Shown here: in pieces, positions 16,545 through 56,008 of the stretch
Position numbering within the stretch: position 1 is the first letter of the stretch
Layout of the letters: each line of letters begins with the position of its first letter
NCBI GenBank assembly: GCA_963575745.1
Contig: CAUYUJ010022043.1
Location: 1-64,000, forward strand
Direction of reading: 5' to 3'
Source of the DNA: Prorocentrum cordatum
Lineage: Eukaryota; Sar; Dinophyceae; Prorocentrales; Prorocentraceae
DNA length: 64,000 bases
The notes under the pieces: model-generated
Database searches by the model: none
What the model was told of the DNA's origin: nothing
What the model saw: only the letters and a program-made list of their open reading frames with translations
Translations under genes and position numbers: made by a program

Positions 16545-19258
16545 AACCGCAGAGCGGCGGATGTTAGAGGCAGGTTTCCCTGCTGGCTGGAGCCCGGCGC
16601 AATTGGCGTTTGTGCCGATGGTGATGGTGCGTCAGGCTCGTCAGGATCAAAGTCCACCTCTTCCTCGCCGGTGACCTCCATCATGAGGACTGTGACTTCA
16701 TCCTCACACAGCCCGCAACCATCGCCCTCTTCCTCTTCTGATGTAGAACTGCCAATGATGATGGCCATCGGTGCAGCCGGGACGGGCAGGTTTCCCTGCA
16801 TAGCCGGCGTCTGAGCGTCGCTCGGCTGTCCCGGGGTAGGCGGCACGGTTGTCGGCTCAGGCTCGTTGCCGAGCACAGGCTGGCCAGCAATGTTGCGCAT
16901 GGCAGTATGGTTTGGCCATAGTCCCGCCGCCTGGAGACCCCATCCTGGCGGAGGAAGAGCCTGGCCGCGCATGGCGATGGCCCTTTCAAGGGCCTCGCGC
17001 CACCTCCCTCGGGAGTACCACGCATGCCTCTGCACGTCCCCAGGGTGCACGCTGTCGATAAGAGTCAAGGCTGCCAACACTAACTCCGAGTCGTCGCAAG
17101 CGTCAGTGTCCTGCAGCATCATGCTACCAGCCTCGATGCTTTCTTGACTCTCAGGATATGTTATGGTTAATATCTCGCGCATCCTCATGAGGGTTCGCAG
17201 TAGTGTGCGTGGCCCGCACTCGCCTGGCGCAAGCGAACCAGGGGGTATATATGGGTTCCCTGGGGAGCCCGCAACGAACGCTTGAGACTCCATTTCTATA
17301 AGTTCAGCGTAATTCCGAGGATAGGTAGGCCCGTTTCCAGGCGGGAGGTCGGGTGGAGGTTGGAGGCCACGGTCAACCTCTGAAGGCGAGGCCTCTACAG
17401 TGACGTCCTCGTCACTGCTCTCGTAGGCCGCGATGTTGCCTGGGTTCCCGAACATCCAGTCGAAGAAAGATAAAGGCTGGTTTCCCAGCGTTCCGTGTTC
17501 CACGGGAGTGAGCTCGTCGCTGCCGACAACGAACCTGCGGACGTACTCGAGGTAGTACGCGTACAGTCCATGGCCATGCGCCTCGAGCTCGTCGACGTTG
17601 TCCACGCAGCTAACCCAAGTGTAACATATATGTTCCATGGCCTCGAAAGCATGGAGGCTCAGATATTCGATAAATGGTTCACTTGAGCCAAAATGGACTT
17701 CGGTCGACCTGCCCTTTCCATTTCCCTTCGCTGGACAATCTCTCACAAGATGGTCGGTACTATCACACTCATGGCACTTCAGGACCTGGCCGTCTCTACC
17801 TCGCGGGTTTCCCCGCCTACCTTTGCCTTCGCCTGAGGTCTCTCCACGGCCTTTGCCGCGGCCTTCCCCCCCGAAAAATATCTCATCATACTGTTCATCT
17901 GAGAGCTTCTGGAGGAAGGCCGCGATGCCTCGCCCATTCAAACTCCGACGACCCCGTTTGCCTTTACCTTTTCCCTTGAAGCTCCTCCGTATCCTCCTCC
18001 TAACACGACGCACGGGTTTTCGCGTGAACCTCCTCCACCTCCGTTTAGCCTGTTGCAATAACCAACACAAGTGTTCAGCACGCTGGTTGTCATTTTCCAT
18101 ATTCATAATATCTGACCAATCTAAAGCTTCAACACCGTCTGATGATACAGTATCTGTGTCGGTGCCGGAGTCGAAATCATCGTCTCCCAAGTAGGTGGAT
18201 AGATACACCGTCGGTTAGGGGGTTTGATTCACCCCATAAGGAACGGTGTGGTTGAGGTTCCCTGGAAGGAGGGCTGGTTGCCCAGCTTGGTTGTGATCGA
18301 TCCCCTGCTAGTAGAGCAGTGGATTCTCCAGGATCATCGGCCCATATGCTTGAGGGCACGTTTCCAGGCTGGGCTTCAGTGGTTGAGGTAGTGTAGAAAT
18401 TCCCACTACCAGATCCCCTTCCCCTTCCAAACACAGATCCTATATTGCCAGGAGACCGTTCTGATAGGTGGCCTATCGAACGCATCCTCTCCAGCAGCTC
18501 ATCATACTGTTGTTGTGTTCGGGGCATTTGATGATTGAGTGGCTGTAAGAGTTGCATAGCTCGCTGGTTGCCGACGCCTAAGGCGCGGAACAGATCGCGG
18601 TTAGCAGTTGGAAGTTGGGAAGGTCAAATCCCACCGACTGTGCCTCAAGTCGGGCCATTTCGAATCGGGTAAGGGTGACATCGATTCGTTCTCCGTGAGG
18701 CGCATGAAAGTCGATGAGCTGTGTGCCGGAAGTGAGCTGGCGCTCATCTTCCAGGCGCTCGAACTTCATGCTTAGGAGGAACATGATGTAGGTCACTGGG
18801 TCGATGTGGACCCATCGATGTCAGCACCATAGTTTATAATGTCAGGTGGTACCCTCATGGCGAGTGTCCTCGCTGGGCCACCCAGGCCGCGTTGTATGGC
18901 GGCCGCTTGGGCCTGTGGTGTCATACGTCCACTTGTGACGTTGAGCCACGCGTTGACCTCATAAACGTACTCGCGGAAAAGGTACGTTGCCTTGAGGGTC
19001 CCAGTATGGGCCATGTGTTTGCCCATCGGTGCTGTCTTCTCCACGGCGCATGTGTCCGATTGCTGCCCCCAGCGCGAACCATGTGATGGCGAAGATAACC
19101 AGCCCAAGGCTGTGAAGATAGGGGTGGTGATTAGGCGCGTTGCCGCGCTGGGGTAGCGCCTTGTCAAGTCTTCGCGGCGCTCTATCTGGCGGATCTCTCC
19201 GCCCATGCTTCAGGTACTGCGTTTTTGGCTCGTTGCCGAACGGTTGGTAGTAGCGCAA
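16545..19258 (-). pseudogene. gag: Gag polyprotein of element A (copia-like)
   Basis: Gag packages element RNA into particles. Reading from 19,258: a hydrophobic helix (LGLVIFAITWFALGAAIGH), then the Gag core (EVNAWLNVTSGRMTPQAQAA) and LLQPLNHQMPRTQQQYDELL, an Arg/Lys-rich block (RRVRRRIRRSFKGKGKGKRG), and a CCHC zinc knuckle CHECDSTDHLVRDC near 17,735-17,780. An acidic, Pro-rich C-terminal part follows to the truncation. Frameshifts occur near 18,985, 18,795, 18,590 and 18,190. Homologous to Gag B at 54,281-56,008. Seven hairpin inserts lie within it. Confidence 0.82.
16570..18369 (-). repeat. 14-nt GNRA-loop hairpin inserts in element A (seven copies)
   Basis: Plus-strand starts: 16,570 and 16,786 (GCAGGTTTCCCTGC), 17,329 (GCCCGTTTCCAGGC), 17,476 (GCTGGTTTCCCAGC), 17,803 (GCGGGTTTCCCCGC), 18,273 (GCTGGTTGCCCAGC) and a decayed one at 18,356. 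On the sense (minus) strand each is a 5-bp stem closing GAAA or GCAA. Stem pairs change together (A-T, T-A, G-C at the middle pair) while the fold is kept. In Gag they read as GNLP, GNQP, GNPR or SWATS, so more than one codon phase is used. Confidence 0.85.
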
Positions 19259-19444
19259 TGATGAAGCGTATATGGTACCAATGTTGTTGTCTAGACGTCG
19301 TACCTCTCGTGTTGCTTATTGCTCTTGGATAGATCCTCGTAAACGTACTGGGAGTGGTGGCGCAGGGTGGTAGGTGGTCACGAAGATCGTGCCGAATAGT
19401 ATGAGGAAGAGAAGAGCAAGAGCTGACCACACGAGAGTGCGGCC

Positions 19445-19456
19445 AGCTCCGCTACC
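19445..19456 (-). other. Primer-binding site of element A
   Basis: The minus strand reads TGGTAGCGGAGC immediately inside the LTR edge. It is complementary to a tRNA 3' end ...GCTCCGCTACCA and resembles initiator-Met tRNA primer sites of copia elements (family knowledge). The 16 bases GCCAGCTCCGCTACCA are identical in element B. Confidence 0.75.
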
Positions 19457-19740
19457 AAGTCGAAAGTGACTATGGTAAGTCAAATCGCATCCGATTCCAT
19501 GGGAAGCTGATGGCAAATAGCGTCCGGTATCGTACTGAGGTTGTTCAGTAAGAGGAATGTACGGATAAGATAAGAAAATATCGATGTAATGATCTTTCCA
19601 GCACATAGCGAGCACAAGCAGTGTCTGGGCAAATAGGGCGCGCGTGCCTTGAGCCAAAGGCAACGGCGCGCGAGCTATACTCCCGATTCTGCAAAACATC
19701 TCCCAAAGAGCTACCCTTAAAGTCTGGAGGCCTCCGGAGA
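19457..19740 (-). repeat. Putative 5' LTR of element A (single copy)
   Basis: Lies next to the primer-binding site where the LTR must be. Its sequence differs from the B LTR and no partner copy is in the window, so the outer boundary (about 19,740) is a guess. Confidence 0.45.
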
Positions 19741-19860
19741 CGCTCAGATGTTTAATCGCGTCCGCTTCCTCCCTCCTCCCCCCCCCGACTGATCAGGGGG
19801 CGGGGGGCCCCCCCGACTGATCAGGGGGCGGGGGGCTCTGAGATCAGGCGTTCTGAACGA
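19741..19860. repeat. C/G-run duplication
   Basis: A segment with CCCCCCGACTGATCAGGGGG is duplicated in tandem (about 19,785-19,840). Each copy is a perfect dyad around TGATCA. Confidence 0.8.
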
Positions 19861-21790: not shown

Positions 21791-21794
21791 AAGG

Positions 21795-28479: not shown

Positions 28480-28553
28480 AGGCTTGTTGGCTTCGTTTTG
28501 TTTTTCTCTTTGCTCACGCACCGACTGGTGCAAGGCTTACCTGACCTGACCTG

Positions 28554-32064: not shown

Positions 32065-32078
32065 TATCTTCTTCAGTG
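32065..32078 (+). repeat. Right target-site duplication of LINE L2
   Basis: TATCTTCTTCAGTG, identical to 28,884-28,897. Confidence 0.9.
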
Positions 32079-34735: not shown

Positions 34736-34816
34736 GACTCGCGTTGTTCCTACACTCAGCCACCTTCCTGCAGCGCTGTTGCACAGGCACGGTGGCGGGT
34801 TTTGCCGAAGGCAGCT

Positions 34817-38186: not shown

Positions 38187-38191
38187 GGCCT

Positions 38192-38454: not shown

Positions 38455-38598
38455 CGGGGGGGGAGGGAGACGAAGCGTGAGCCCGTCGCCCCTATACAGC
38501 ATGCATAGCAGCTAACATACACAAGGACAGAAAAGGAAGCGGGCCTAAAGGAAGGTGGACCCGCTCGCAAGTTGCCTCGCATGTACGTGACGTACACA

Positions 38599-39009: not shown

Positions 39010-39185
39010 ATTACGGGCTGCTGCTAGTGTCTCTGCTGCATAGCTCTAGCGGGCCTGCAAGCGGCGAGACTTGCAGTGCGCATCGATCAAGTGAACGACA
39101 AGCTTGCCGGGTGACGTTTTCCCACGTCGTTGCAGGTTTGCCCCGCAAATATCATAGCCTTTGACGTCGTCATCGGCGTCTCCAC

Positions 39186-40369: not shown

Positions 40370-42258
40370 GTCGTTGCTCGGACAAGACTACCTTTGACAT
40401 TTCTGTCGTAAAACATAATCCGACATGTCGACCATTTTCGCCTGAGTCTAGTCCGTAGCTGTCGTCTTCGACCATGGTGTACATTGGGGCGTAATACGTC
40501 TCCTCGGTATCGGAGTCGTGAGTGCGCCTCCACTTTGGCAGGTGTCCCTGCTGTTCATCAGCTACAGTGATCAGCACATTTTGATATGGAACCATATGTG
40601 TAGGTACGGCGAAGAGGTCCTCTGGTGGAGTTGCCTCCAACAGTTCCCTTTCCTCTCGTAGTTCTGCTTGCCACACCCCCATAACATGCGACTCAAGATC
40701 AGCCTCTGATTCTTCGTAAATCGTAGAGAGCCGTCCGTCATCATGTGATGGTTCGGCTTCTGAGGCTTCTCTTGCGGTTCCATCCGGTGTCGGTGTGTCT
40801 GCCAATTCCTCAAAGTTTGGCATGTCCTGGTCAAAACCTGCTTGAGGTTTAGTGGACTTCAGGCAGTGGATAATTCGTGAATGTGCTGATCCAGTTATAT
40901 CATGTATATTTCGAGCAATACCTTCTGCTTCATAATAATGATATCCTGGATTCACGTCGTTGTCGTAATGGACAAATGTGCAGTTGTCAGCATAAATGAC
41001 CGGAGTCAGCTTATGGATACTCTTGGCAAGCCGGACACAAACGGCATTCGCAATGCGAAAGAAGTTTCTGATAAGGTACTGTAGAGCCAAGTGTACCTTG
41101 GGAGATAGACGGCTTGCGGTCGTCATCTGAAGCGCCCCTTTCTTGGTCGGCACATAGCCAAAGGTCAAGGCAGGTCCCCCCGCTGATAGGCTGGCTACGA
41201 ATGTTAACACTGTGCGTAGTGCAGCGTTGTCAGAGCCAATCTCTCGGGCTATGGGCGCTTCAATGTATAATGAATGCCTTGTGTCGCCGTATTGTACTTG
41301 AACATCTCGATTGCCCCCTCGGATGATAACCTGACCCCTTTCGGGGTCATTCTTTACACCTGGGAACGGGCCATTCCAGCATCCCCACTCATCCTTCGTG
41401 GTCGTAGGGCGATGGTAATCGACCAAGTCTCCTTCATCGTAATCGTGTTGACCAGTAATCGTCGTTTTAGTGCGTAGGGCACGATTGGTCTTAGCTGCTA
41501 CTGTGGCCTGTGTGATAGTTTCAGTACATACCCTGCGCATCGTCTGTCCACGAGAGTGGCCCGACGTTTCCGTCGGCTGCTCGTGGTCCAAAACAGGGAG
41601 GTCAGGGAGCGTTGCTGGTTGCCGTCCAAACAGAGCGTTATATGGAGACCCCCCGCGATAAAGTAAACGCGCTGGCGGCGAACAGGGCCTCGTGCAGTAG
41701 TCGGGTGAACACAAGAAGTATATCTAACCTATTGAGCTCAGCCTCCATGGCGTGAAGTAAATGGCGCAGGATGTCATTTCTGGCCTCGGTCGTTGTAGCG
41801 TGCTGTCCACGCGCACGCATCCTTAGTTCATTGCCTTTTGCCTTGAGGACTGCTTTCGCAGTGTCGTAGTTAAGGGCGCCCTCTCCATCGAAGTAGAGTA
41901 CCTTTGCCGGTCCAAACTGCATCCAACACTCATGATACGCATCAAGGATGCTGGTCATAGTCTTGTCTGGTATCTCAATCCCAGCAGCATACCGTAAACA
42001 GCGATCGGAACTATGGAAGATACTGTGTTCTTGTTTGTAGAACATCAGATCACGTTCCGCTTCCTCACTACATTTACCAGGGAATGCAGTAGAGGGCATA
42101 ACAGTGCGCCCAGGATTGTCCCAAGCTCTGCATTCTCGGCATGCGTCGCAGACACCTTTGATTTTATTGAGTCTGACATTGCCCAGACATATCTTGCTTA
42201 AGATGAGTCTCATCTTAGGCTCCTTTGCATGGAGCCAACGGAAGTGTAGCTTTCGCAA
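40370..42258 (-). pseudogene. Element B integrase
   Basis: From 42,258: HHCC-like zinc region (HFRWLHAKEPKMRLILSKIC ... CDACREC), then the DDE core with ERDLMFYKQEHS (first Asp), VLYFDGEGAL (second Asp) and TTEARNDILRHLL (Glu). After a frameshift near 41,700 come YNALFGRQPATLPDLP and the C-terminal DNA-binding part DEGDLVDYHRPTTTKDEWGC. A long acidic, Ser-rich linker leads to reverse transcriptase. Joins cDNA to the host genome. The order integrase before reverse transcriptase identifies the Ty1/copia type. Confidence 0.82.
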
Positions 42259-42375
42259 CTCGCGTGTTACCGCGCTGGGGTCAAGGCTTCGTAAGTTTTG
42301 TAGACTGATGTGTACGTCGAACCGTGACCAGTCTGGTAGTCGTGGTCGTGCAGCAGGGTTCCCCGCTGGTAATTG

Positions 42376-42951
42376 TTAAGGTGCTTCTCCACCTTGTTGT
42401 CGACCACGTCTGACTCTAACCTGTGGTAGTCGGAGATGGCCATCCGAACTGCCGGCTCCACTCGAGGCAGGTTGCCCTGCAGCGGGTTCAGCAGCATGTC
42501 TTCCTACAGTAATGTCGTGACTACTTGAGCCCGCTGTGGGTCCAGCTCTGGAGCCGGGTCTCGGTGCTCTCAGCCGCGCAAGTGGTGACGCGGCTGGCGC
42601 ATCGGGTGGTGGTGCTGCTAACTCAGCAGGATATGGCGATGCAGGTCCTGCTGCCGGCTCGGCAGGAACCGGCGGTATCTGTCCATGATTGTCGGGCAGC
42701 TTCCGAGGCTTGGCAAACTTGCATTTGCCAGGTGTTGGTACGTGTCCAGGCTTGTTCTTCCCGTAGTTCTTCTTGCAGCTCGGACATTCCCAGTGGTAGT
42801 CATCCTTATCGTACCACCTGCAGTGTCTCGGATCTCTATCCTGAGAAAGAGAGCGCATGTAAACGTTATCCGCGCACGCAGGACACCCGAGCCCTCCCGA
42901 TAGGAAGTCTCGCAATCGAGCCATCAAGTTGTCGAGGGAGACTCGGGTCAT
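42376..42951 (-). pseudogene. Element B zinc-binding segment with Pro-rich tail
   Basis: Reads GCPACADNVYMRSLSQDRD, HCRWYDKDDYHWECPSCKKN and TPGKCKFAKP: three Cys pairs plus His, compatible with a zinc ribbon. A Pro/Ala-rich tail with AGQPA hairpin peptide follows. Function unknown; position just upstream of integrase suggests part of Pol. Confidence 0.6.
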
Positions 42952-43160
42952 CCAAGCCGCATCCTCTTACGTTAGTGACCGACGCGGTGGGCGAATACGG
43001 ATATCCATGGAAAGGATCACGGGTTGCCTGGAAGAGATCGTGCGCGATCTAAACGGCCTTGACGAAGAGTAACTGCATCTTCGAAGTACATTGTGCAGCC
43101 GTGGACAGTTCCTTGCTACATACCGACGCGTGTTGATGATGGCCAGTACATCGTTCTCGT

Positions 43161-43516
43161 TCAAAAAAACGGAAAAAGGCGATGGTTGGCCATGATCTCG
43201 GTCGGCTTTCGCATCAGTAACCCATGGGAGTCACGGAAGCCAAGAGTGCATTGATCCATGTTCACCTTGCAAGCGCCCTTGCTTTTGGCCAACGTAGTCC
43301 ATGGTGGTATCTGATCCACCCAAGTCCCCAATGGTTGTTCTCGTAAGTAGAATCGTCGAAGATAATTTTGGCGTACAGCCACCTTCCCACATAACTTGAT
43401 ATGTGGTTAGTCGTCTGTATGATGTTCATGCCAAGTGTCGTAGTTAACCTTTGCATTGAAATAGGAAGGTAAACCAGTTGTTCTGCAGCTGGGCTGTAGA
43501 ATGACAACCTTGACAA
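43161..43516 (-). pseudogene. Remnant of a Pol accessory domain
   Basis: VNMDQCTLGFRDSHGLLMRK followed by PTEIMANH resembles the end of a domain in dinoflagellate copia Pol that carries a PPC motif (see 59,951-60,390 in element C). Several frameshifts. The assignment is from memory of the pattern and is tentative. Confidence 0.4.
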
Positions 43517-43850
43517 AACAAACGTCTCGCTAGTGCATCACTGCAACTTGGACATCCGTGTTGCCAAGGTCAACAAAGGCGCGTTCGTCTAGGTTTTCCC
43601 CTGAAGACAGACCTCGGCTGAGTGCTAGTTGAGAGATGCCTCCACTTCCTCCACACAATTCTAGCATATCTACCTTGTTGTGTCGCCCGTAACACAAGGT
43701 GGGGATTATGGAGAATTTATCTGCGCAGGATTCCGCAGGTTGCCCCGCAGGTCGCGCGATGAAGCCCCCCTCTCCATCGTCACTATCCGTGTCGAAGTCA
43801 AGAGGTACATCGGTGTAGTACGTACTAAATCCGAGTCCTTTCAGGTCGTC

Positions 43851-45023
43851 TCAAGAGTCGTAGTTGCCTCCCTCGGTCATTTTGGGTACATTGCGTGGCT
43901 TGATGCCAGCTTCTTTGTCTGCTTTCTGTTTTTCTTTATGTTTAATCCTGGCATCGGTTGGCAATGCTGTCTGTTGCCCTGTCCGAGGTGAGCTAAGTGT
44001 CGAAAAATTCGGGAATTGAAAAGGGCGCGCGGCCGCGCTCAATCGAAGGGGGAGGGAGACATCGATGATCGCCACTCGCCTTGAGCGTGGACGTGAGCTG
44101 CCATCTCCCACGAGAGTCGGTTCCGGCTGCTCCCAGTACAGTCGGGTACGGATGTTGGTAACACCATTGGGTAACGGTGCGTTGTATTTGTGCCCGATAG
44201 GCTGGTCCTGGATCTTGGTGTCTTGAATAATCGCGCTGTCGTCCAGGTTCATCGCCACCCGTCTAACAACATGATCCCACGCGGGGCAATTCTTAGGAGA
44301 CTGAACGTAAGTTCGAGCTCCTTTATCAACTCGAGTATGGATACTATGATGTACTGCGCTTGTGTGATTTCTCTGCGTTTCATGTAAATCCATATGATCC
44401 ATTAGCCTTGCGGTCATGATCGCTAGCGTCTTGTTGCGCCATTCGGCCTTCTGGGCACCTTGTCGATGCCAATCTAGAATATGCGAAATAGGTTCTGCAG
44501 GTTTCCCTGCTAGGTTGTATGCACATCGCCATAGGTTGGTCGGGATGCACCTACAAGTAGTCGCCACTTGCAAATATGACCCGCTGGGCAACGTGTTAGC
44601 GCGGTCGTACTTGAGGCCGAAGTGGCAGAAACGCATACGCATGACTTGCAAATCAAGATCTTCAATAGCTTCTCGTATGGGACCTGGTTTCCAGAAGTCT
44701 CCCGGTGGCCCCACAAGTACAATGGTCATGCGTAGAGCCCGAGCCTTGGACATCAAATTTTGGATGCGCTGGTAGCGCGGCCCTGCCCTCTTACCAGGCA
44801 GCCCCACGTGCCAATCAGCAGGTGTTGCCACCCGCAACAGTTGGTAATCACCCGAGAGTGATGCACCCAAATACTGTGCACCAGTGGATACGTCTGTATG
44901 TGTAATACGGTCACACATGTATCCACGGGCTTGGAGTTCAGCGCAAGCTGTCCGTATATCCTCAATGACAAATCCACGAGAATGATAATGATGAGGCGAT
45001 CCTTCTTTTTCTGCAGCGGCCAC
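43851..45023 (-). pseudogene. Element B Pol-region frame with GPP motif
   Basis: A 390-codon frame, the longest intact one in this part: YMCDRITHTDVSTGAQYLGA, LRMTIVLVGPPGDFWKPGP, MRFCHFGLKYDRANTLPSGS, then NLAGKPAEPISHILDWHRQG with a hairpin insert inside. The GPP ... FCxFGL ... PS order recalls the PPC-type domain of element C, hinting at a decayed second copy. No catalytic assignment can be made. Confidence 0.45.
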
Positions 45024-45280
45024 TCAGCCTGCTCGCGGCAGCCGCGCAGCCGGGCTTGCCGCGGCCCCTGGCACGCACAGCCGGTGCCTGGGCAAAGAAT
45101 GCAGGTTTCCCCGCGCTTGCTGACAGCACCTGAGTGTTCGGCCTGTCTGAGCACGCGCAACTGGCCGTGGCGCGCGCCTGCCCCCGTCGCTCGTTCGGCG
45201 ATGGGGGCGTCCAAATGCCTGTGCCATGCTGAGCTGCAGAGCCGCTGCTCGAAATAAAAATACCAAACTTTTCAGCGGCA

Positions 45281-46343
45281 TCATCCCCTTTCCGCAGGTT
45301 TCCCTGCCTGCGCGTCGGGAGGCGTCCACTTCGCGCCCTCCTCGTACATGGCCTGATATATCTTCGCATGCAAATTGCGCAGGGCGAAGTCCTTGTCGGC
45401 CGAGGTAGGGTAAGTCCAAAAGGACATATTCCTGCGATGCCATGTCTTCAAGGTGTCGTTCACCAAAGACTGGATCGTGAAAGTGAGGGTCTCCTCGTTG
45501 ATGGAGGAACTGATGCCCTTCGAATCTTGTGACATCATACATGCGTGGGCATCATTCACAGCAGGTGTCCTTGCAATTGGCTCTGGATCAGATGTCTCCT
45601 TGAAGACTTCGCGCTGAGGATTGGCCGCAATAATAAAAGACATCGACCCTTGATCCTCAGTAGCCGCCCCGTTCTCGTCAGCCTTGAGTGCCAGATGTCC
45701 AGAAGGTGTCTTCATCAGGTCGAATACTCCGGCACCCCTTCCGAGTAGAATATTATACATCTCCGCGCCAGGGATGATCATCTTCTCGTGCCCCTGCTCC
45801 AGGATCAGGATGGCCCCCATGTTGGACATGCTCCTCAGACCCAGGATGGAAGTGAGGTTTTCCCCAGAACCTTCAGGTACATTTGCTTAGTGCGCATCGA
45901 GTCTCGAGCAGGTGCCCCGCCGGATCTCCCCTTTCTTTGCGTGCAATCTTGCAGTGCAGGGATTTATCGCACATCGCAGCGCCATGCCCCACTCCTGACA
46001 CGTCAAGCCTCTTCGTCAGGTTCAGCCTCTTAATGGCGCGTCCGTGGGGGCGCGATACCTGCTCAAAGGTCTGCGCCGTCTTTGAACCAATAATATTGAT
46101 ATTACTACCAAAATCCAGAAGAATAGTCAACATACTACTAATCATAGTTCCACTGTTAGCTGCCAAGGCTAGTTCGTGGCGTTCACCAAATAGTCCAGGC
46201 ACTTCAGACACTGTCGTGTCATGCGTGCCTTTGCGGCGCCTCTGCTCCAACACCCACTCGTTTCGTGAAAAAGATGTGGAGACATTCATATATCCACGAG
46301 CCTCTCCTTCCGTAGTAGGATTCCCTTCCAAGGTCCAGACCAT
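45281..46343 (-). pseudogene. Element B aspartic protease
   Basis: Retroelement pepsin-like protease that cuts the polyprotein. From 46,343 the frame reads LALAANSGTMISSMLTILLD then FGSNINIIGSKTAQTFEQV, so the catalytic D-T/S-G box is DFGS here; the missing Thr/Ser suggests loss of activity. After a frameshift near 45,850 the second half follows (MGAILILEQGHEKMIIPGAE, GHLALKADENG). Hairpin inserts at 45,294, 45,561 and 45,907. Confidence 0.65.
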
Positions 46344-47119
46344 CGGATATTCGTCATACGTATATGGGTGTTATTTATCATACATACCGTATGCAACATA
46401 TCGCGTTTGCATATCCCACTATTGCCACTACGCGTGCTTGCGGGGCTTTCCGTCCTGCGCTGATTACGTGGACGAAGGTCTCGCCCATGCGGCATGTATG
46501 AGTGTGGAGACTGAAGCCACTGAGCGCTCCTGTCGGTAGCCCCTTCCATGCGCCTCAACCACGTATCGTTCGCCGGCGCCGGAGGTGGTGCTGATCTAGC
46601 AGGTGCCCCTGCGTTGTTATCGGTCTCTGCCACCAATGGCATAGGCGTGTCTATAGCAGGTGTCCCTGCAAGTGTGGTTGCCTCCGTTACTCGCCCCGCG
46701 TTGGCTGATGACGCAGGCTGCCCCGCTGGCGTCGCCATCGAGACTGCCGCGGCGCCCGCCATCTTCGCCGTGACGCGGTTGAGCTCTTCGCGGAGGTCCC
46801 TGAGCTCGTTCGCCCCATCGGAGTATATTCCCGGATAGCCTCTTGGGCTAGATAGGGTTGTCAGAAGAGAAGCCGGCGGGTGCTCGTGCGCCGCCGCACC
46901 CCTCCGCCCACCGCTCCACGTTCCCTTCTGTGGCTCCCCGGGTTCCGCAGCGTGTCCCGGAGCGCCTGTTCCAATACGTTCCCGTAGAACGTGCTCCAGA
47001 GGCCTCGCGAATCTTCCTGGGCAGCGAGCCCCCACGCGTGCAGGCTCGCGTGGACGCGTCGCTCTCAGCCCTTCAGGAGCGCGCCAGGCAAGCTTTCCAG
47101 CGCCACCACGCACGTGCAC
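46344..47119 (-). pseudogene. Pro/Ala-rich frame upstream of the protease
   Basis: Contains ANELRDLREELNRVTAKMAG (helical), AGQPA and AGTPA hairpin peptides and a run of Pro-rich linker. A 53-bp-period duplication (CAGGAGCGCGCCAGGCAAGC word at about 47,073 and 47,126) marks its right edge. No domain recognised. Confidence 0.4.
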
Positions 47120-49260
47120 AGCCCGTCAGGAGCGCGCCAGGCAAGCTTTCCAGCGCCACCACGCACGTTCAAAGAATGCTTGAGGCTACCTGACACGCAG
47201 TCGCACGTACCCGGGGACGCCTCGCCTGGGGCGAGGATCCGGGATTGGCGCGCCGGCGTAACTCGTAGAGCTTCCCTTAGCTAGTACCACGTAGAGCTCT
47301 TCATTATCGATGAGCTAGAGGAATGCCGGCGCGGGTGGGGCTAGTTGGTCGACCCGGCCAGAAAGGACAAAGTGGTGATTTTGGGTCGGTTTTGCTAATT
47401 TTTGAAAGATATTTGACCATTTATTTTGAGAAACCAGATTTTCCGCACCTGGAGTGGGTTATGCCGCGTCTGTCAGTCAAATCCTCAGGTCCGTAGATGC
47501 AATATTTCTATCAGAACACTTGGCGGAACTGACTTTCGATAAAAACATAAAAACGTGATTTTTCGAGTTGTTTGGGTCTTGCTCCAGACGCTTCCTGCAT
47601 GTGTACCGAGGAGCGCAGTGCGAGAAAAGAGCTCTACGAGGGCCCCGGCGGTAACCTGGTTGACGGTTTACCGCCGGGTCCAAGTTGCTGGAAGCTTAAG
47701 AGTAATTCCGCGGCGCTGCAGAGCTAGTTGGCAAGAAAAATCTCGACTGACCTTTTGGTGAATTTTGGTCGGTTGAAAATTTCGTTCTCGAAATTCATAC
47801 ATTCGTTAGAGCTCTAGTACTTTTTCCCGTGATATTCGATCTTATTCCCGCTCGCCGTCTCAATATCAGCTCGATCGGGTAGATACTACTGCCAAAAAGC
47901 ATCCCGGTGGGATCGGCTGTTTCGAGTCATCTTGACACGCGTTAACGGTTTTTTGTACTTAACTCGAGCTGTAGCTACAGAGCTGATACTTTCAGAAATC
48001 GATTCAGAATCATCTGGCGCGTTCGTCTGTTGCATCGAGAGGTCTGAACTCGGTCTGCTGCCCGAGCTAGGTCCGCGAAACTATTCGTATTGTTCGGGTC
48101 ATCTTGAGAGGTGCTGTCGGTTTCTGTACTTACCTCGGGTTTGGGGGGGCTACAGGGCTGGTAATCGCAGAAACTGATTCGGCGACATCAGGCGCGTCGG
48201 CCTGTTATGCAGAGGTCTGAAATCGGTCTGCTACTCGAGCTAGATCCGTAAAACTATCCGCATCGCTTGGGTCATCTTGACAGGGACTGTCGATTTTCTG
48301 TACTTAACTCGAGCCCCAGGGGAGCTACAGAGCTGATACGCACAGAAAACGATGCAGAATAATCAGGCACGTTCGTCTGTTGCATCCAGAGTCTGAACTC
48401 GGTCTGCTACTCGAGCTAGGTCCGCGATTCGTATCATTCGAGTCATCTTGAGAGGTGCTGTCTGTTTTCGCACGTAACTCGGGCTGTAGGAGAGCTACAG
48501 AGCTCATACGCACAGAAACTCATTCGGAATTATCAGGCACGTCCGTCTGTTGCATCCAGAGCTCTGATCTGGGTCTGCTACTCGGGCTAGGTCTGCAAAA
48601 CTATTCGTATTCTTCGAGTCATCTTGACAGATGTTGTCCATTTTCTGTATTGAATTCGGGCCGTAGGAGAGCTACAGAGCTGGTACGCACAGAAGCTGAT
48701 GCATAAGCATTGGGATCGTTCATCTGTTGCATCGAGAGGTCTGAACTCGATCTGCTACCCGAGCTAGGTTCACAAAACTAGTGGTATTCGGCCGACAATT
48801 TTTTCCAAATGATGGTCAATTTCTTAACTCAACTCGAGCTGCAGAGCAGCTCGAGAGCTCTTCGGCCGAAAGATCAGAAGACATCATGAGGCGCGAAGCA
48901 TTTAGACCCTTGGTTTGGGTCTATTGTGAGCGCAGACGCCAAACACGGATTCGTACCCTGCTATTTTCTCCCTAATGGTATTTTCTACACGCTGCAGATG
49001 AGCTATAGAAATGTTCAGCACAGCAATGGGATATCACTAGACGCCTGAGATCAGTCTGCTATCAGCGCTCGGACTGAAAAACTATTCGTTCTCTGCTAAT
49101 TCTTTGGACATAATATATGGTCAGGAAGCTCTACGAGTCCAACCGGCGGTGAGAAAGGTTGACGGTTTACCGCCGGCGCCCAGTTCCGGGCAGGCGAGAT
49201 CGTACCTGCACACGTTCGTGCCCTGAGCAGGGCGTTAAAAGGCTCTGACCTGAGCAGGTC
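47120..49260. repeat. Foreign-looking insertion in element B with 173-bp satellite
   Basis: No hairpin inserts and no retroelement frames here. A repeat of about 173 bp runs from 47,927 to 48,790 (TCATCTTGA at 47,927, 48,099, 48,272, 48,442, 48,619), with weaker copies to about 49,100. A block containing GGTTGACGGTTTACCGCCGG, able to fold on its upstream GGCGGTAA, occurs on both sides (47,628-47,690 and about 49,120-49,185) in direct orientation. I interpret it as a repeat element that entered B late. Confidence 0.7.
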
Positions 49261-49261
49261 G

Positions 49262-49837
49262 TTAAACTGGTTCAGTGTGAAAGGGACTTCCAGCACTGCT
49301 GGAAATCCCTCGCATGTGACGAAACCTGCATCTGGCCGCACTATATGCGCACCGCGTGCGGAGCAGTCTGAGGCGAGCGCAGGGGCACGCGCGGCGCCAG
49401 AGGCAGAGCCCGGGGTGGCGCTTCCGCGACGAGACGCGCGCGCGCGTCTCTCGCTTGGCTATCCGGGTTCTGGACAACAACAGGTCTTCACGGCGATTGA
49501 GTGATTCCTGATCTCCGGCAAGGGCGTAGTGGAACTCGGCAGTAATGAGGCCAACACCCCTGCAAATTGCGCAGGGGGCCTCACTTGCGGAACCTTCCAT
49601 GTTCCCAGCTTTTACATGAGCATGTGCCACTCGATCCCAGCATTGTGCATGGAACATGTGGCCGCACTGGAGCCGCCAGACTTGTCGTGGTTCATGAACT
49701 GGCCCAGGCACATGGCACATCGCCGTCGCTGATGATGGGCGGCGTTGCCGATGGCCTGATACGCGTCTGACGCTCCAGGGTGGATTCACCAGCCTCGAAC
49801 CAAATAGGTGATACCGTCGGTAGCTGCATTGATGCAA
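49262..49837 (-). pseudogene. RING-H2 finger frame in element B
   Basis: Reads VWRLQCGHMFHAQCWDRVAH (Cys-x-His-x2-His-x2-Cys core), then SEAPCAICRGVGLITAEF (last Cys pair). The first Cys pair, RRCAMCLGQFMNHDKSG, lies in the adjacent frame near 49,700-49,735, so one frameshift splits the finger. RING-H2 domains usually recruit ubiquitin-conjugating enzymes. Not a standard copia component. Confidence 0.6.
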
Positions 49838-51046
49838 GCATGGCTGGACTGCTCGCAGGTGTCCCTGCTGTATTGCGATTAGCAGGTTGCCCCGCGCGGC
49901 TCAGCATTCTGTTGGCCTGATGATCCTGATTTCGGCGCTGGCGGGTAGCCTGCATAGCCAAGTTGGCCTGCTGCGCCTCGTGAACGGCTAGGATCTCAGG
50001 GCGCAGCTCTCCCATGGTCGGTGGCAGTACTAGGCCTGGGGCCTGTTGCTGCACATCTTGATCCATGGGGGGGGGGGAGATATCCATAGTGAGGTATATG
50101 TCCTGGCACGCCTGATGCATGCCCTGAGCCGCGCGTCAGCTGCGACTGGTAGAAGTCGCCGGCCGTCGCCCGGACATATGGGTTCTCGGGCTGTGTTCCC
50201 ACTCGGGGAGTACCACTCAGCTGAGCGTGATAATCAGGATCGAGTGGATGATCCAGTGGTGCTGCTGTTGGACGTTCAGCAGACATTGGATCGCATGTCG
50301 GATGATTGAAACATGCTGGCACATCTCCAAACCGATTGGGGTTGTCCGGCGATGGATTTGGATCCGGAACATACTCCCAAGGCGGCGCCCAGTTGGCACT
50401 AGGGAGGTCAATCCCGTCCCTACGCATACTCTGAGCGGCCTCACGCATCTGCCGATACATCCATTCTCCATTCTTGCTGACCAACTAAACTCTCAGTTCT
50501 CTGTACGGCAGATTGGTCAGGAGAAGCAGGTTGCCCCGCATGTGGATGTGGCGATGCAAATGGCGATGTCGCCTGTAAAGCCTGATAGAGCTGCGGATCC
50601 ATCCGAATGCTTTAAAGCCTTGCCTGCAAGCTATTGTTGCTCCCAGCACTCTGTGGAGTTCCAAATGGTGTAGTAGCTCTGCTCACTGGAGCAAATGAAG
50701 CAGGTTGCCCTGCAGGTACTGGCAGTTGTTGTACATGAGCACGCCACGGATCGTTGACGTACAGAGTGTCGGAGGGCGTGATACAACTTGAAGTAATGCC
50801 TGTCACATCGGCGTTCTGAGCTTGTATCCATGATCCATCAGATCCCCCTGCAGGTGTCCCCGCATGATATGCGTCCATCATGAGCACGGTTGAGAACACG
50901 ACCTCCTGAACTGGAGGCGGATCGGGACACTTCAAATTGTAGGGTGTCTTTGGGATGAGCCAATCCTTCAAAAATGATGCATCGTTGCGGATCTCGTACA
51001 GATCTTCAATTTTACAGCTTGAATGCGGCTGATTACTGTCCCGCAA
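49692..51046 (-). pseudogene. Gln/Pro-rich accessory frames of element B
   Basis: Three consecutive frames (50,612-51,046; 49,996-50,484; 49,692-50,120) with SCKIEDLYEIRNDASFLKDW, MYRQMREAAQSMRRDGIDLP and Gln-rich VHEAQQANLAMQATRQRRNQ. Low-complexity and carrying five hairpin inserts (AGQPA/AGTPA). They link the Tpt1-like and RING parts. No domain recognised. Confidence 0.45.
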
Positions 51047-51094
51047 ATAAAGGATTGACCCATATCTGTCCCGCGCGATTGTCCTGACAGATAT

Positions 51095-51450
51095 GGCTGG
51101 GCAGAATCCCGATCAACTGGGCGATATGGGTTGGAGGAATCCTGCCATTCCAGCCCGCTGTCATGACGATGTCATTCGCTGAGTGCCAAATCGGAATACT
51201 GTCCCGCAGCAGGTTCTTCATGCTAACCGTGACCAGCACCTCGAAATCGACGCGCAGGCCGGACTGAATCCGACTGTCACCAGGAAGGTACGGGCAACCG
51301 TGGACAAGCTGTCTGCCCCTCTTCTTGCTGGTGTCGTCGGATCGGCATGACAATCCAATGATAAGGATACCCGGTATATTCTCTCATTGAGTTCCATGGA
51401 TGAAATAACAGGGCGCCCCAAGAGCGGACAGGTCCGAAATTCGCACACAC

Positions 51451-51483
<33 letters not shown>

Positions 51484-51870
51484 GGGGCACCGACCACCAG
51501 GGCTGCTGTGTCCGCTGCTTGGACGGACGAAATACATGTCGTGTTTCTCGGAGTACTTCAACTTCTTGTTCTCTTTCATCCCAGACTCATCAACCATGCC
51601 AATACGTTCCAGAACAGCATAAGCCTGGTACGCCCAGTGCTGGTCCTTGAGCTTGTAGCGCACCCTGTCCAGGTGCTTGCGGTGGTAAACCTCATATCCT
51701 TCGGCAGGTCAGTTGTTGAATCACTGTGATAATTCTGCCCATCCGTCGCACTCGTCATACGATGTTACTTCCAGAAGGAATATGTCCGACAATTGACCTC
51801 TATGAAAGGGCTTGTGACGGAAAGCCGTTGTCAGCCACTCTGAAACCTTGCGCTGATCGTCGTGCTTGAA
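51095..51870 (-). pseudogene. Tpt1/KptA-like RNA 2'-phosphotransferase domain in element B
   Basis: Tpt1 uses NAD+ to remove the 2'-phosphate left by tRNA ligation. Signatures in order on the minus strand: VSEWLTTAFRHKPFHRG and CDGWAELS (N-lobe L..LRH and DGW), ENKKLKYSEKHDMYFVRPSS with GHS (K-R-F...RAxQGHS box), FIHGTQ...NIPGILIIGL (HGT...IL..GL), YLPGDSRIQSGLR (PGD..I.SGxR) and WHSANDIVMTAGWNGRIPP (S.NGV.LT.G..G..P). The order and spacing fit the family. In-frame TGAs at 51,721, 51,709 and 51,384 and a TA microsatellite (51,451-51,481) interrupt it, so this copy is probably dead. Recognised from motifs only. Confidence 0.68.
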
Positions 51871-52949
51871 CTTCTGCTGGTTAATATCTTCTGATATGAA
51901 TATGTGTTCCATATATTCCCTTTCAGAGTCAAACGTGGGTACTGGGCGCTTCCGCAGAATGTTGCGCACTACGTGGCGCGTGTGTGACTCTGGGTTATGA
52001 TGAATAGCAGTGTCCACGATGTTGCATTGCACCACCATATATCGATCAGACCCGTCGTCAATCCGAGGATGACACGCTGGGTGGATCTTCATGCGATTGG
52101 ACGTGCGCATCTTGTCCCAGAACTCTCGGCACTCCGTTGGCACCTCCAAAGCGGGGGCAGGGCGCTCCGCTGAACTCTGAGCAGGTTGCCCCGCAGAACT
52201 CTGAGCAGGTTGCCCCGCGGAACGCGGGGCTGCCATTGGCGCGGCAGGCGCTGCGGCGCTCGCCGCCGATATGGCAGCGCCCGCAGATCCTCTGGGCGTC
52301 CGTGGAGTTCCTGGCGGGGCACTGATATCGAAGTCCTGGCGTTTCTTTTCCTTGATGTTGTAGGACTCGGCTGTCTTATCCCTGGGCGCCGTTCCCGGCG
52401 CCCTTGGCGTGGTGGCCAGTAGCTTGTCAGCGCCGCGCTTCGTAGAGGAAGCACCCCTTGCCCGTCCTTCCAGCGCGGGCACCCATCCTGTCCTGTGCGC
52501 CCGACCTGGTGGAGGGCCGCGACGTGGCAGAGGTTCCTTTGGAGTAGGCGCACTGGTGCCCTGAAATGCAGCTGCTGCGGCAGCCGCTGCTGGCCATCTG
52601 AATCGTTGTCGATCAGCAGGTTGCCCCGCATATCGCTGCTGCTTGCTGTCCCCAGGGTTGGGGTCACCTGGGCTCTTCCTTTTCTTTTTCTTAAGCTTAA
52701 GCTGATGGGACCAAGAGATGGGCTTGATGAATCAGAAGATGGAGGAAGATCGACCGCCTCTGGCTTTGGCTCAGGAGTTGCCTTTGCCATGGCTCCTGCC
52801 GGCGCCCCTTGCACGTAGCGCATGGGACCTCGGTCAGGATTCAGATCGACATTATCTGGCTTCCGGAGGGCCACATTCTTAATGGGGATATTGTGCTTAC
52901 CTGAAACCAAGTAAGTATCGGCGTTTCGACTTTCGACTACGCTTGTCAT
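51871..52949 (-). pseudogene. Element B accessory frame, Pro/Ala-rich, upstream of Tpt1-like part
   Basis: N-terminal part from 52,949 (VESRNADTYLVSGKHNIPIK, Ser-rich acidic stretch, SLSLRKRKGRAQ basic patch), a frameshift near 52,500, then Ala/Pro-rich linker with two tandem AGQPAQSS units and a folded-looking end (MKIHPACHPRIDDGSDRYMV, SHTRHVVRNILRKRPVPTFD, EYMEHIFISEDINQQKFKHD) leading into the Tpt1-like N-lobe. Function unknown. Confidence 0.5.
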
Positions 52950-52965
52950 AATTCAGCCATTGGCT

Positions 52966-54402
52966 TCAGCACGGTAAACAATCCACCTCCCAGGAGATAC
53001 ATCCATCTCTGGTGACAGCGTAATCGGGGTCGATCGGGGTAAATGTCTGACATGCAATGTCCGCGATACCCGAATTGCTGGACTCGTAGCCTTCAGGGGC
53101 AGCGTCCTCAACTTCCTCAGCCATCTCATCATCTTCATCTTCACCAGCTTCCTGTTGGCCTTCTTCTTCTGATGTATGATCGGCAGGTTTCCCCGCGCGC
53201 CACTCGCGATTGAATTGCACCAAATAGTGAGTAGGTATCAACTTCTTCCGAACGAGGTGTGAGTGAACTATTTCTTCAGCGGTGTCGCGGTCGTGATCTG
53301 TCTCCATCAGCTGCTCACGATATGGCGTAGTATTGGGATCAGTACAGTGACCCTGACCATCTCCATGAAACCAAACCCATGGCGTTCTTTTGAAATTCGG
53401 GCTTCTTGATGGGCGCCCCATGGGGCAGCCGAGCCTGCGTCAGCATAACGGGGCATGTGCAACAAACGCATCTATAGAGCTTTCGCTCCTCGATGATCAC
53501 CCTCGTGACGCCCCGCGTAACCATCTTCTCTTGTGATTTGGTAGGTCCCGCCTGTGAGCGCATGATATTGCCTGCATCATCTCGTTTGACCTGGCGAAGA
53601 GAATACCAGTGCCGAATTTGATGCTCACTCCAACCCTGAGCCAGCCAGTATTCCATCTGGCTTGCGGGTATGTGTTGGCGAGCCAATACAGCTTCAGCGT
53701 AGCCTTTCAGACGCTGCATGTCACCTTCTGGATGTTCTCCTCGTCGCAGTTGGTCATCGTGAGGCGGGCTTCCCCGCGAACGATCCCTCTAGTCGCCTGC
53801 CACGGCGAGGCCCTTGGGGTTCCCGCATCAGGAGGACAGGGGCGCTGAATGCCGCTCGAACGGGTCCGCGTACGATCTAGTAAGTGGCTGGGAGCTCGAC
53901 CGCGACGCATCATGCGGTCATTGTCTCCCCGTTCGTCGTCCTCGTCATCGTCGCGATAGTTCTTCTTCCCCACGGCTGGGCGGCTGGGCGATCGCTTCTG
54001 GCGGCTGGCGGATCGATCTGGCGAAGCGAAAGTGCATTGAACATCTTCGCTATGACCAAGCTCATATAGAATACGCTCCGACAGATCACCAGCGTCGCGA
54101 GGGCTCCCCCGCAGAGGATCACCATCGATTAATTTCACGTGTGTCGGATTTCCAACCACCCGGGGATATAGCACCGCATGTATTTCCTCATCTGTTGCAT
54201 GAATGGTACATTCTGAATCCGCGGGCGTCCCCGCCATGCCGAATTCACCTTCGATGGGCATGCGGAAGTTCTCGACAAACTCAATCTGTAGGTTGCTCCG
54301 CGATGGGTGCACCCAGCCATTCTGCCAAGTCGATGTCATTGTGGCCAATGGACACCTCCTCGAACAGCTCGTCGGCGAAATGCTCGAGGGCCATGCTGGC
54401 AC
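52966..54402 (-). pseudogene. Element B accessory frames after Gag, Cys-containing
   Basis: 54,402-53,707 reads VENFRMPIEGEFGMAGTPAD and EIHAVLYPRVVGNPTHVKLI, then Arg/Asp-rich sequence. 53,719-53,339 reads ASQMEYWLAQGWSEHQIRHW and YRCVCCTCPVMLTQA (three closely spaced Cys). 53,421-52,966 reads EEIVHSHLVRKKLIPTHYLV and an acidic tail. These overlap by short frameshifts and appear to be one original reading frame. Continues from Gag by a shift near 54,290. No domain recognised. Confidence 0.5.
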
Positions 54403-56008
54403 TTAGATACCTGGCAGCCATGAAATGAACAATTGTGGCTGAGCCGTCGGCAGGGTCGGCTAACAACGACTCCCAATCAACATCGGAGTCCGATTGAGCC
54501 CGATGTATTGACGGACCCCTGCCTCTCCCAGCACCTCGGGGGCATTCGCGTCGGAAATGTTGTGTGCTGTGGGACATGTCGCACTCCATCGGTACACCGT
54601 TGGCATCTTTTGGGTTTCCTCGCCGTCCTTTGCCTTTGCCTGATGTATGCCTGCGATTTCTGCTAGTACCTAAACACATTTCTTCATGCTGAGGTCCAGT
54701 GAGAGACGCTAGGAATGCAAGTATGCCTCTACCATGCAATCGCCGACGCTGACCTTTGCCATTACTTCGACCCTTGCCTGTTCCTTCAAATGGTCGTCGT
54801 ACAATACGTCTTACCTTTCGGACTGGTTTCTTCATGAACCTCCGCCAACGACGCCTGTGTTTTTGTTAGCCCAAAAATAACCATTGAGCTTGTTGCTCTT
54901 CAGTGAGGTATGTAGGCATATCAGAGTAATCCAGGGCGGTAGCTTCGTCATCGGAAGACGCGCCCGCATCGGTACCGGAGTCGAAGTCAGACTCGGCGGG
55001 TTGCCCCGCTGAGCCCAGTAGGGTCATGGCTTGTGCAAGGGAATCCGCGTCAGGCGGTCCCCCAGGTCTGGCCCAGGAGTCTTGCGACCCCGAGGCCGTT
55101 CCACCATTCTGAGCCAGCAGCGCAGTGGTCTCAGTTGACTGTGGATCATCGTTCCAGACGTTGTTGGCAGGTTGCCCTGCGTTGGCCTCTACGTGGAAGG
55201 TCTCGGTTCGGTGACCGTGGCTAAAGATACCGCCGATATTGCCAGGGGTCCTCTCAGCTACGTGAGCATATGACCTCATGCGTTCAAGTAGAGCGTCAAA
55301 TTGTTGTTGGTCTCTCGGCATGTGGTGGTTCAGAGGCTGCAGGAGTTGTTGTGCGCGCGATGTCCCCACCCCAAGAACTCTGAATCGAATTACTGTCAGG
55401 ATTTGGAAAATGGGGATGTTGAAGCCGGCTGTTTCAACTTCGTAACGGGCTATCTCGAATCGTCCTAACGTCTGGTCGATACGTTCAGCCGCGTGGACTC
55501 GGAAGTCAATAAGAGCCGTGCCAGAGTTGAGTTGGCGTTCCTCTTCTAGGTTCCCGGACTTCGTGCTTCAGAAGAACATAATGTTGGTGGCGCCGTCGGT
55601 GCGGCGACCGCCTATATTGACGGCAAAATTAATAACTGCTGGGGGGACTCTCATGGCTATAGTCCGTGCGAGACCTCTCAAACCTCGCTGCAATGCTGCA
55701 GCTTGCTGGGAGGGCATCATATTGCCTGTAGTCGCAGTGATCCAGGCATGTACTTCGCGGACGACTTCGCAAAAAGGTACTTGACCGGCGGGGTTCCAAT
55801 GGGGGCCGGTCGTTCTTGTGTCTTCTCCGCCCCGCAGATGTCCTGCCGCACGCCCAATAGCAACCCATATGAGCCCAAAGATAATAACCCCAATCCAATG
55901 GCCTCGTAGGTCGTAGTCGGATGTAGTCGGCTGGGACTTATGTTGTTTAGTCGTAACTCTGCGTGGGGTCGGAGGCGGCAGTATGTCGTATCGCATGTTT
56001 CCATGCAT
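54281..56008 (-). pseudogene. gag: Gag polyprotein of element B
   Basis: One continuous frame of about 575 codons interrupted only by TGA at 55,568 and TAA at 54,866. N-terminal hydrophobic helix WIGVIIFGLIWVAIGRAAGH, Gag core EVHAWITATTGNMMPSQQAA and GLRGLARTIAMRVPPAVINF, LLQPLNHHMPRDQQQFDALL, basic block RRRWRRFMKKPVRKVRRIVR, and a zinc knuckle with one Cys lost (CDMSHSTQHFRREC, Ser in place of the second Cys) near 54,535-54,590. Closely parallels Gag A, where the knuckle is intact. Sits directly after the primer-binding site leader. Confidence 0.83.

Follow-up and report, generated by a model that had tools for sequence, protein, structure and literature searches.

The window analysed here is a stretch of 64,000 nucleotides of the dinoflagellate Prorocentrum cordatum (contig CAUYUJ010022043.1, positions 1 to 64,000), and it holds two retrotransposon sequences, elements A and B, whose sense strand is the minus strand and along which a short RNA hairpin recurs many times. 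Element B is a long terminal repeat (LTR) retrotransposon with LTRs of 266 bp at 90% identity; its RVT_2 match (E 1.7e-05) lies under the curated cut-off, and tblastn relates it to gag, mid and pol of a fuller relative that we call the C1 element. Element A is a gag-region fragment, frame 2 of which reads as a zinc-knuckle-like plus basic stretch. The C1 element, from the same genome (4.13 Gb in 21,875 contigs), is 16.4 kb long and lies within the 24-kb stretch C1:2042001-2066000, with LTRs of 289 bp at 99% identity and an RVT_2 match over the cut-off (E 2.5e-11); its long open frames cover gag, a middle part of 2,306 residues, one more part and pol. An integrase-like stretch upstream of its reverse transcriptase (RT) was seen by eye only, and Pfam gave no integrase match; a target-site duplication was not established from the LTR ends. 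A and B belong to a Ty1/copia-type LTR lineage that also holds the C1 element, L012, L023 and L046, the last of these being a third divergent family (33-58% amino-acid identity). Coordinates are collected in Table 1.

The recurring unit is a 14-nt hairpin of the sense RNA, 5'-GCNNN-GN(A/C)A-NNNGC-3', with 5 base pairs and an exact tetraloop. It was scored by structure, as a paired GC-NNN stem with a G..A tetraloop and G-U pairs allowed (the GC-stem form), or as a G..A loop without the GC requirement (the any-stem form). A sequence-only reading of the window had described about 33 copies of a narrower pattern, GCRGG-N4-CCYGC, placing 7 in A, 27 in B (degenerate ones counted) and none elsewhere. 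This strict pattern occurs at 27 sites, 3 in A (16570, 16786, 17803) and 24 in B (40538-55167), with none in the remainder of the 64 kb and none in the insert at 47,120-49,260. To this extent the confinement stands, but the GC-stem G..A form, which numbers 35 on the minus strand (23 in B, 10 in A), is also found outside the two elements, at 37998 and 3183 and twice on the plus strand. Because the strict pattern is palindromic, the strand information sits in the loop. Read on the minus strand, all 27 strict loops start with G and 23 are of the G..A type (18 GNRA and 5 GNCA), and neither A nor B holds a single antisense GC-stem G..A hairpin (10/0 and 23/0 sense to antisense), which bears out the proposal that the loop always lies on the transcribed strand. 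B has 44 any-stem G..A hairpins in sense and 9 in antisense, and A has 13 and 1, where first-order Markov means are 8.0 and 1.2, and other window regions hold 0.27-0.69 per kb per strand. The insert, said to be free of copies, has no strict or GC-stem site but does have 3 any-stem hairpins on the minus strand (1.40 per kb) and 0 on the plus strand; the reported absence from the LTRs holds, since none of the listed sites falls within those of B.

The loop is more varied than the GNRA tetraloop first proposed. Among 88 sites in four elements the main loops are GCCA (24), GCAA (20), GAAA (13), GTCA (11) and GACA (8); the third position is A or C in 81, so that G-N-(A/C)-A describes the loop, and a purine is not the rule there, GNRA accounting for 38 sites and non-GNRA loops for 50. 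Stems beyond GCRGG include GCTGG/CCAGC, GCGAG/CTCGC and GCAAG/CTTGC, among others, while the outer GC..GC pairs occur 94 times in five elements and the next-commonest type 5 times. A sixth outer pair is possible in 17/88 sites only, and therefore the unit is sharply 14 nt. Loops of length 4 are in excess in the C1 element (63 versus 4-10 for lengths 3 and 5-9), and likewise in B, A and L012. Rfam returned 0 matches over the gathering score in 94,000 bases.

The hairpins turned out to be a trait of one copia lineage, as far as sampled, and not of A and B only. The C1 element carries 47 GC-stem G..A hairpins in sense and 5 in antisense, and its 7.6 kb of flanks 1 and 0; the sense sites span 395 to 16,043 of 16,436 nt, clear of both ends by about 400 nt and outside the LTRs. 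The corresponding sense and antisense numbers are 25/4 in L023, 8/0 in L012 and 6/0 in L046. For any-stem hairpins they are 61/11 in the C1 element, 34/7 in L023 and 15/6 in L012 (Markov means 8.5, 3.8 and 3.3), and 8/3 in 5 kb of L046. In a background sample of 18 loci (178.7 kb of the same genome), GC-stem hairpins cluster in the lineage members L012 and L023 only, the other 16 loci holding 0-2 each, and a general GC-rich background is thus rejected. A trait of all copia elements is rejected as well: nine other copia loci, picked among the 150 RVT_2 matches listed and taken as 1 kb upstream of RT each (9 kb), show no GC-stem hairpin in either orientation, 6 sense and 2 antisense any-stem ones, and no match to C1-element proteins. 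Close to the normal hairpins, at about 3.6 kb of L023 and at C1:2055930-2055970, a small 15-nt tandem array was observed; its GCGGA/TCCGC stems are palindromic, its sense loops are not G..A, it encodes the peptide ADPSA, and it is the source of two of the antisense G..A calls in the C1 element.

Genome-wide, GCRGG/CCYGC stems enclose G..A loops 61,787 times, compared with 9,783 for a loop-swapped A..G control, and the GCAAG/CTTGC stem does so 3,625 times, compared with 1,039. Within the GCRGG/CCYGC set the G-U form (GCGGG..CCTGC) is found 14,238 times and the A-C form (GCAGG..CCCGC) 2,951 times, the latter being near background, given that one quarter of the loop-swapped count comes to 2,446. 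Either form arises from a perfect stem through a single transition, the two differing in the arm that is hit, and the asymmetry therefore points to pairing in the sense RNA; mutation bias alone would not predict it.

Several computations support the conclusion that the sites are strand- and loop-specific hairpins kept by selection on RNA structure. When the C1 element was shuffled with its codons preserved, the 58 any-stem sense hairpins compared with a mean of 10.5 (sd 2.6, maximum 17 in 200 shuffles), whereas the 9 antisense ones compared with 8.3, so that both the shuffle and the strand bias proposed as checks came out in favour of a repeated RNA-structure signal. Coding hairpins of the C1 element fall in phases 0, 1 and 2 in the proportion 37/3/6 (n=46), those of A and B are mixed and parts of pol are off phase 0; because several codon phases are used, the hairpins are not explained by peptide alone, in keeping with the sequence-only reading. 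Most phase-0 sites encode AGxPA, and 23/25 AGxPA peptides are hairpins, yet alanine is GCG in 43/52 cases inside hairpins versus 104/485 outside, and the peptide variants AExSA, AAxAA and AVxAA are outcomes of paired stem changes.

Beyond this genome, AGxPA occurs 8 times (0.1 expected) in a metagenome protein that shares the Tpt1-like and RING domains, and 4, 2 and 0 times in Gag relatives, all at the protein level only. A proxy peptide, [HRQ]G[NDH][VLMP], is weak in metagenome relatives (<=5 per protein), and one scan of viral contigs gave no relative.

Over 51 aligned comparisons, both directions counted, the hairpin is kept in 29 at 63% flank identity, and in 27 of the 37 that belong to the mid-to-pol alignment. 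Other-loop hairpins are kept in 70/315 at 68% flank identity, GC-stem hairpins with other loops in 11/33, antisense G..A hairpins in 5/16 and any-stem sense G..A hairpins in 42/98. Among the 255 base pairs of the hairpins, 19 are doubly compensated, 19 changed on one side and 50 broken; doubly compensated pairs number 65/1575, 7/165 and 3/80 in the first three of these controls. Retention is thus clear, and the doubly compensated pairs add modest support. When B, L012, L023 and the C1 element are aligned, several sites from mid to pol prove to be shared; one site of this four-element alignment has the stems GCGCG/CGCGC, GCGTG/CGTGC and GCGTT/AACGC, and another GCAGG/CCTGC, GCGGG/CCTGC and GCAAG/CTTGC, with pairing preserved in both. 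At closer range, a 1.3-kb stretch of B was aligned in 21 rows, including 20 of 40 other matches. Its five hairpins sit at the same places in 21/21 copies and are intact in 15-19 rows each; the non-intact rows are mutated, never empty, and the stems vary less than their flanks. At a sixth place (window 50445, stem GTATC in B) a GC-stem hairpin is present in 5 rows. The C1 element and L023 are 95.6% identical, and between them 0/259 or 2/283 stem and loop G/A columns have changed, depending on the calling copy, against 415/9355 overall. Where these two copies differ in the presence of a hairpin, the indels measure 21 and 24 nt, are in frame and lie amid neighbouring hairpins, and the C1 element often has hairpin pairs spaced 18 nt apart; local duplication followed by selection may therefore supply new sites.

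Which protein might read them? An arginine-rich stretch is alike in the translated Gag of B, A, the C1 element and the Gag relative P0012, and it is followed by a zinc knuckle that scores 18.5 bits in the C1 element, below the cut-off of 20.8, is visible by eye in A and P0012 and is degraded in B. In other systems a module of this arginine-rich and zinc-knuckle kind reads small hairpins. We give about an even chance to the explanation that the tens of hairpins per genomic RNA form a multi-copy protein-docking signal, to which Gag of the element itself probably binds in packaging or condensing the RNA. Each hairpin would be a small binding site for an RNA-binding protein encoded by the element, most plausibly the arginine-rich and zinc-knuckle part of Gag, and many sites together would enable Gag to pick out a genomic RNA of unusual length (16-18 kb) and condense it into particles. 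The number of sites, and not their position, would be under selection, with turnover in gag and disordered coding stretches and some persistence toward pol, a pattern that such selection fits. A bolder form of the same idea, to which we give somewhat less than even chances, takes the whole 16-18 kb RNA as a multivalent scaffold on which dozens of interchangeable 14-nt hairpins would serve Gag of the same element as a barcode along the entire genome; the hairpins would then evolve by compensating changes and, within coding regions, by in-frame gain and loss, and the AGxPA linkers might exist because the RNA needs hairpins.

What else could place so many hairpins in one RNA? The docking partner may be another factor, either a host RNA-binding protein or the Tpt1/KptA-like or RING part of the element, with a function not in packaging but in the export, stability or translation of the RNA or in processing its ends. 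The same RNA-level evidence applies to this alternative, and the Tpt1/KptA-like domain and RING finger make RNA-directed extra functions plausible, but since the nine other copia loci, at 1 kb each, have no GC-stem hairpins, a need common to all copia elements of the host is improbable, and we regard the alternative as unlikely though worth keeping in view. Quite unlikely is a role between RNAs or at the cDNA level, namely dimerisation or multimerisation of the genomic RNA, or pausing and template switching during reverse transcription. The near-identical stems within one element can cross-pair, 26/47 hairpins of the C1 element are at or below 0.5 in local folds, and two close copies have gained or lost hairpins through in-frame indels next to other hairpins; however, duplex pairing would require neither a strict G..A tetraloop nor a preferred loop length, and a bare pause signal needs no invariant outer pairs.

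Two further explanations fare worse. The sequence-only reading had considered a mobile micro-insert, which would spread through the element's reverse transcription without benefit to it. The many copies per element, the tandem pairs at 18 nt and the mostly different places of gag sites in A, B and the C1 element (2/14 kept) are what such an insert might produce, but the five shared sites are never empty in 21 copies, their stems vary less than flanks, the C1-element and L023 differences are in-frame and not of unit length, and no 14-nt insertion with target duplication is seen in the four-element, 21-row or close-copy alignments. An active insert is thus disfavoured, and the explanation as a whole is very improbable. 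That the pattern is an artefact of peptide or codon bias in an Ala-Gly-x-Pro-Ala linker repeat we find hardly credible: the 37/46 coding hairpins of the C1 element in phase 0, the AGxPA phase, speak for it, but the codon usage of alanine, the loss of the excess on codon shuffling, the paired variants that preserve pairing and the other phases used in A and parts of pol refute peptide selection as the sole cause.

Several observations weigh against docking on Gag, or against the conservation that underlies it. Gag binding and the packaging role are what we infer; P0012 has no Pfam match, and its structure model is too poor to use (mean pLDDT 31.8). The outer two pairs are near-invariant and the inner three variable, which is unusual for loop-centred recognition, and loop length 4 shows no clear excess in L046 (9 versus 2-8). 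In local folds with 75 nt per side the mean pairing probability of the hairpin is 0.66 in B, 0.79 in A and 0.44 in the C1 element (21/47 hairpins above 0.5), in the last of these not above that of GC stems with other loops (0.46) and slightly above antisense (0.36); cross-pairing among many like stems is perhaps part of the cause. Gag comparisons keep the hairpin in 2/14 only, and any-stem G..A hairpins have 23/490 doubly compensated pairs, barely over the other loops. The low rate of change in hairpin columns between L023 and the C1 element is partly by construction because the sites were ascertained. Genome-wide copies are related by descent, so that their counts are not independent events, and 10/11 metagenome pol relatives, judged from proteins only, are without the AGxPA peptide.

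Table 1. Elements, encoded parts and individual hairpins of the hairpin-bearing lineage in the window (hairpins written 5' to 3' on the sense strand)
Feature	Positions	Strand	Basis or remark
Element B, LTR retrotransposon of hairpin-bearing copia lineage	38189..56535	-	sense on minus; LTR pair, RVT_2, tblastn
Element A, gag-region fragment, same lineage as B	15901..19800 (limits approximate)	-	sense on minus; tblastn to C1-element gag at 19594-17705
B pol region (reverse transcriptase and downstream part)	38602..41663	-	tblastn, 62-76% identity to C1-element pol
B region matching Tpt1/KptA-like domain of C1 element	51048..51413	-	tblastn, 56% identity
B Gag arginine-rich basic stretch, putative hairpin-binding segment	54721..54862 (approximate)	-	read from translation
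B hairpin GCAAG-GAAA-CTTGC	56120..56133	-	5' leader side of B
B hairpin GCATG-GAAA-CATGC	55993..56006	-	
B hairpin GCAGG-GCAA-CCTGC	55167..55180	-	
B hairpin GCGGG-GCAA-CCCGC	54996..55009	-	C1-element aligned site GCGGA-GTCA-TCCGC
B variant site, loop GACG	54221..54234	-	strict pattern
B variant site, loop GAAG	53764..53777	-	strict pattern
B hairpin GCGGG-GAAA-CCTGC	53183..53196	-	
B hairpin GCGGG-GCAA-CCTGC	52616..52629	-	
B hairpin GCGGG-GCAA-CCTGC	52205..52218	-	24 nt from 52181 site
B hairpin GCGGG-GCAA-CCTGC	52181..52194	-	
B hairpin GCGGG-GACA-CCTGC	50850..50863	-	intact 17/21 rows
B hairpin GCAGG-GCAA-CCTGC	50700..50713	-	intact 19/21 rows
B hairpin GCGGG-GCAA-CCTGC	50526..50539	-	intact 16/21 rows
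B hairpin GCGGG-GCAA-CCTGC	49882..49895	-	intact 15/21 rows
B hairpin GCAGG-GACA-CCTGC	49855..49868	-	intact 18/21 rows
B variant site, loop GCAG	46713..46726	-	strict pattern
B hairpin GCAGG-GACA-CCTGC	46656..46669	-	
B hairpin GCAGG-GGCA-CCTGC	46599..46612	-	
B hairpin GCAGG-GAAA-CCTGC	45294..45307	-	kept in L012
B hairpin GCGGG-GAAA-CCTGC	45101..45114	-	broken in L012
B hairpin GCAGG-GAAA-CCTGC	44497..44510	-	broken in L012; 18-nt gap overlaps site in C1 element and L023
B hairpin GCGGG-GCAA-CCTGC	43735..43748	-	kept in L012, C1 element, L023; stem changes preserve pairing
B hairpin GCAGG-GCAA-CCTGC	42467..42480	-	kept in L012; absent (18-nt gap) in C1 element and L023
B variant site, loop GAAC	42353..42366	-	strict pattern
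B hairpin GCGGG-GGGA-CCTGC	41170..41183	-	kept in L012, C1 element, L023
B hairpin GCAGG-GACA-CCTGC	40538..40551	-	codon phase 2; C1 element GCAAG-GCCA-CTTGC
B hairpin GCGAG-GCAA-CTTGC	38567..38580	-	3' end; hairpin also in L012, C1 element, L023
A hairpin GCGGA-GAGA-TCCGC	19189..19202	-	
A hairpin GCGCG-GCAA-CGCGC	19135..19148	-	
A hairpin GCGAG-GACA-CTCGC	18860..18873	-	
A hairpin GCTGG-GCAA-CCAGC	18273..18286	-	
A hairpin GCGGG-GAAA-CCCGC	17803..17816	-	
A hairpin GCTGG-GAAA-CCAGC	17476..17489	-	
A hairpin GCCTG-GAAA-CGGGC	17329..17342	-	
A hairpin GCTCG-GCAA-CGAGC	16861..16874	-	
A hairpin GCAGG-GAAA-CCTGC	16786..16799	-	
A hairpin GCAGG-GAAA-CCTGC	16570..16583	-	

Other parts encoded by the lineage deserve mention. 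The C1 element has a Tpt1/KptA-like RNA 2'-phosphotransferase domain (E 3.7e-15, L005:5895-9998; E 5.3e-17 in P0016), with a RING finger further on in the lineage; this is an enzyme of the RNA-repair or ADP-ribosyl-transfer type within a retrotransposon, and no Tpt1-bearing retrotransposon is apparent, by title and abstract start, among the literature matches listed. At L006:2816-6607 and at about 43.2-43.7 kb of the window the sequence LELCGGKGGIS is followed by PSCRTTG, which we take to resemble a methyltransferase motif; Pfam gave no methyltransferase match. The N-terminal side of Gag (L005:3508-4200; residues 50-205 of P0012) has, by eye, two hydrophobic stretches (about 53-75 and 182-202 of P0012), as if membrane-associated; a hydrophobic, membrane-like start is unusual for a copia Gag. 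The annotated P. cordatum proteins P0015 and P0017-P0019 contain stretches 86-90% identical to the retrotransposon middle ORF (open reading frame), over 17-30% of the query, and two of them bear the host-like names 1,3-beta-glucan synthase and protein-tyrosine-phosphatase; these stretches are gene-model contamination or exonised fragments. Elsewhere in the window, positions 25603-34322 hold non-LTR retrotransposon-like ORFs (endonuclease/exonuclease/phosphatase and RVT_1 domains), flanked by 93-nt repeats at 21771-22216 and 34387-34832 and with no GC-stem G..A hairpin, and tandem arrays of an approximately 131-nt repeat, about 10 kb apart and up to 90% alike, lie at 4428-5128 and 14813-15472.

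How do these hairpins compare with known systems? According to PMC6281560, MS2 and other single-stranded RNA viruses have many short genomic stem-loops with a small loop motif in common, which in MS2 consists of (x)xYA in the loop and an A in the 5' bulge, and the multiple sites with affinity for the coat protein are thought to promote assembly. The hairpins described here resemble such dispersed packaging signals in that many stem-loops with one common motif lie along a genomic RNA under selection on RNA structure, but they occur in an LTR retrotransposon, their motif varies far less (a fixed 5-bp stem, GC outer pairs and a G..A loop) and has no bulge, and binding by Gag is putative. Retroviral packaging and dimerisation (psi) hairpins have G-headed tetraloops, for example GACG in murine leukaemia virus, that are bound by the zinc-knuckle part of Gag. 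These are few and confined to the 5' leader, unlike the 23-47 hairpins here, which are spread across the whole coding RNA. Rickettsia palindromic elements and the palindromes of Volvox organelles are short dispersed mobile repeats, the former found also inside reading frames. Our hairpins are likewise short palindromes dispersed in DNA, but their loop is strand-specific, covariation is seen in the stems of some sites, and divergent families have some sites in common. Dinoflagellate retrotransposons with extra enzymes are known from PMC5890265, in whose title and opening abstract captured methyltransferase genes figure and hairpins do not; the extra domains here are instead Tpt1/KptA-like and RING. 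In the passages of PMC11453091 consulted the strings "hairpin" and "palindrom" do not occur, and the literature matches listed, a set mostly outside subscription papers, include no account of such retrotransposon hairpins and no "GNNA tetraloop". We regard the motif as a new variety of cis-acting RNA signal and not as a proven packaging signal.

Assembly of RNA genomes directed by dispersed hairpins has so far been argued from variable motifs. Here, one genome offers a sharply defined motif in tens of thousands of copies, carried by a eukaryotic LTR retrotransposon and accompanied by strand, loop and stem controls, so that a 14-mer and a single protein fragment would suffice to test the assembly idea directly. 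If the hairpins do act as a barcode read by Gag, they would constitute an explicit, readable packaging code outside RNA viruses that has shaped protein sequence, and the AGxPA repeats suggest protein linkers dictated by RNA structure. In addition, the motif provides a signature by which this copia lineage can be followed in other large genomes of dinoflagellates.

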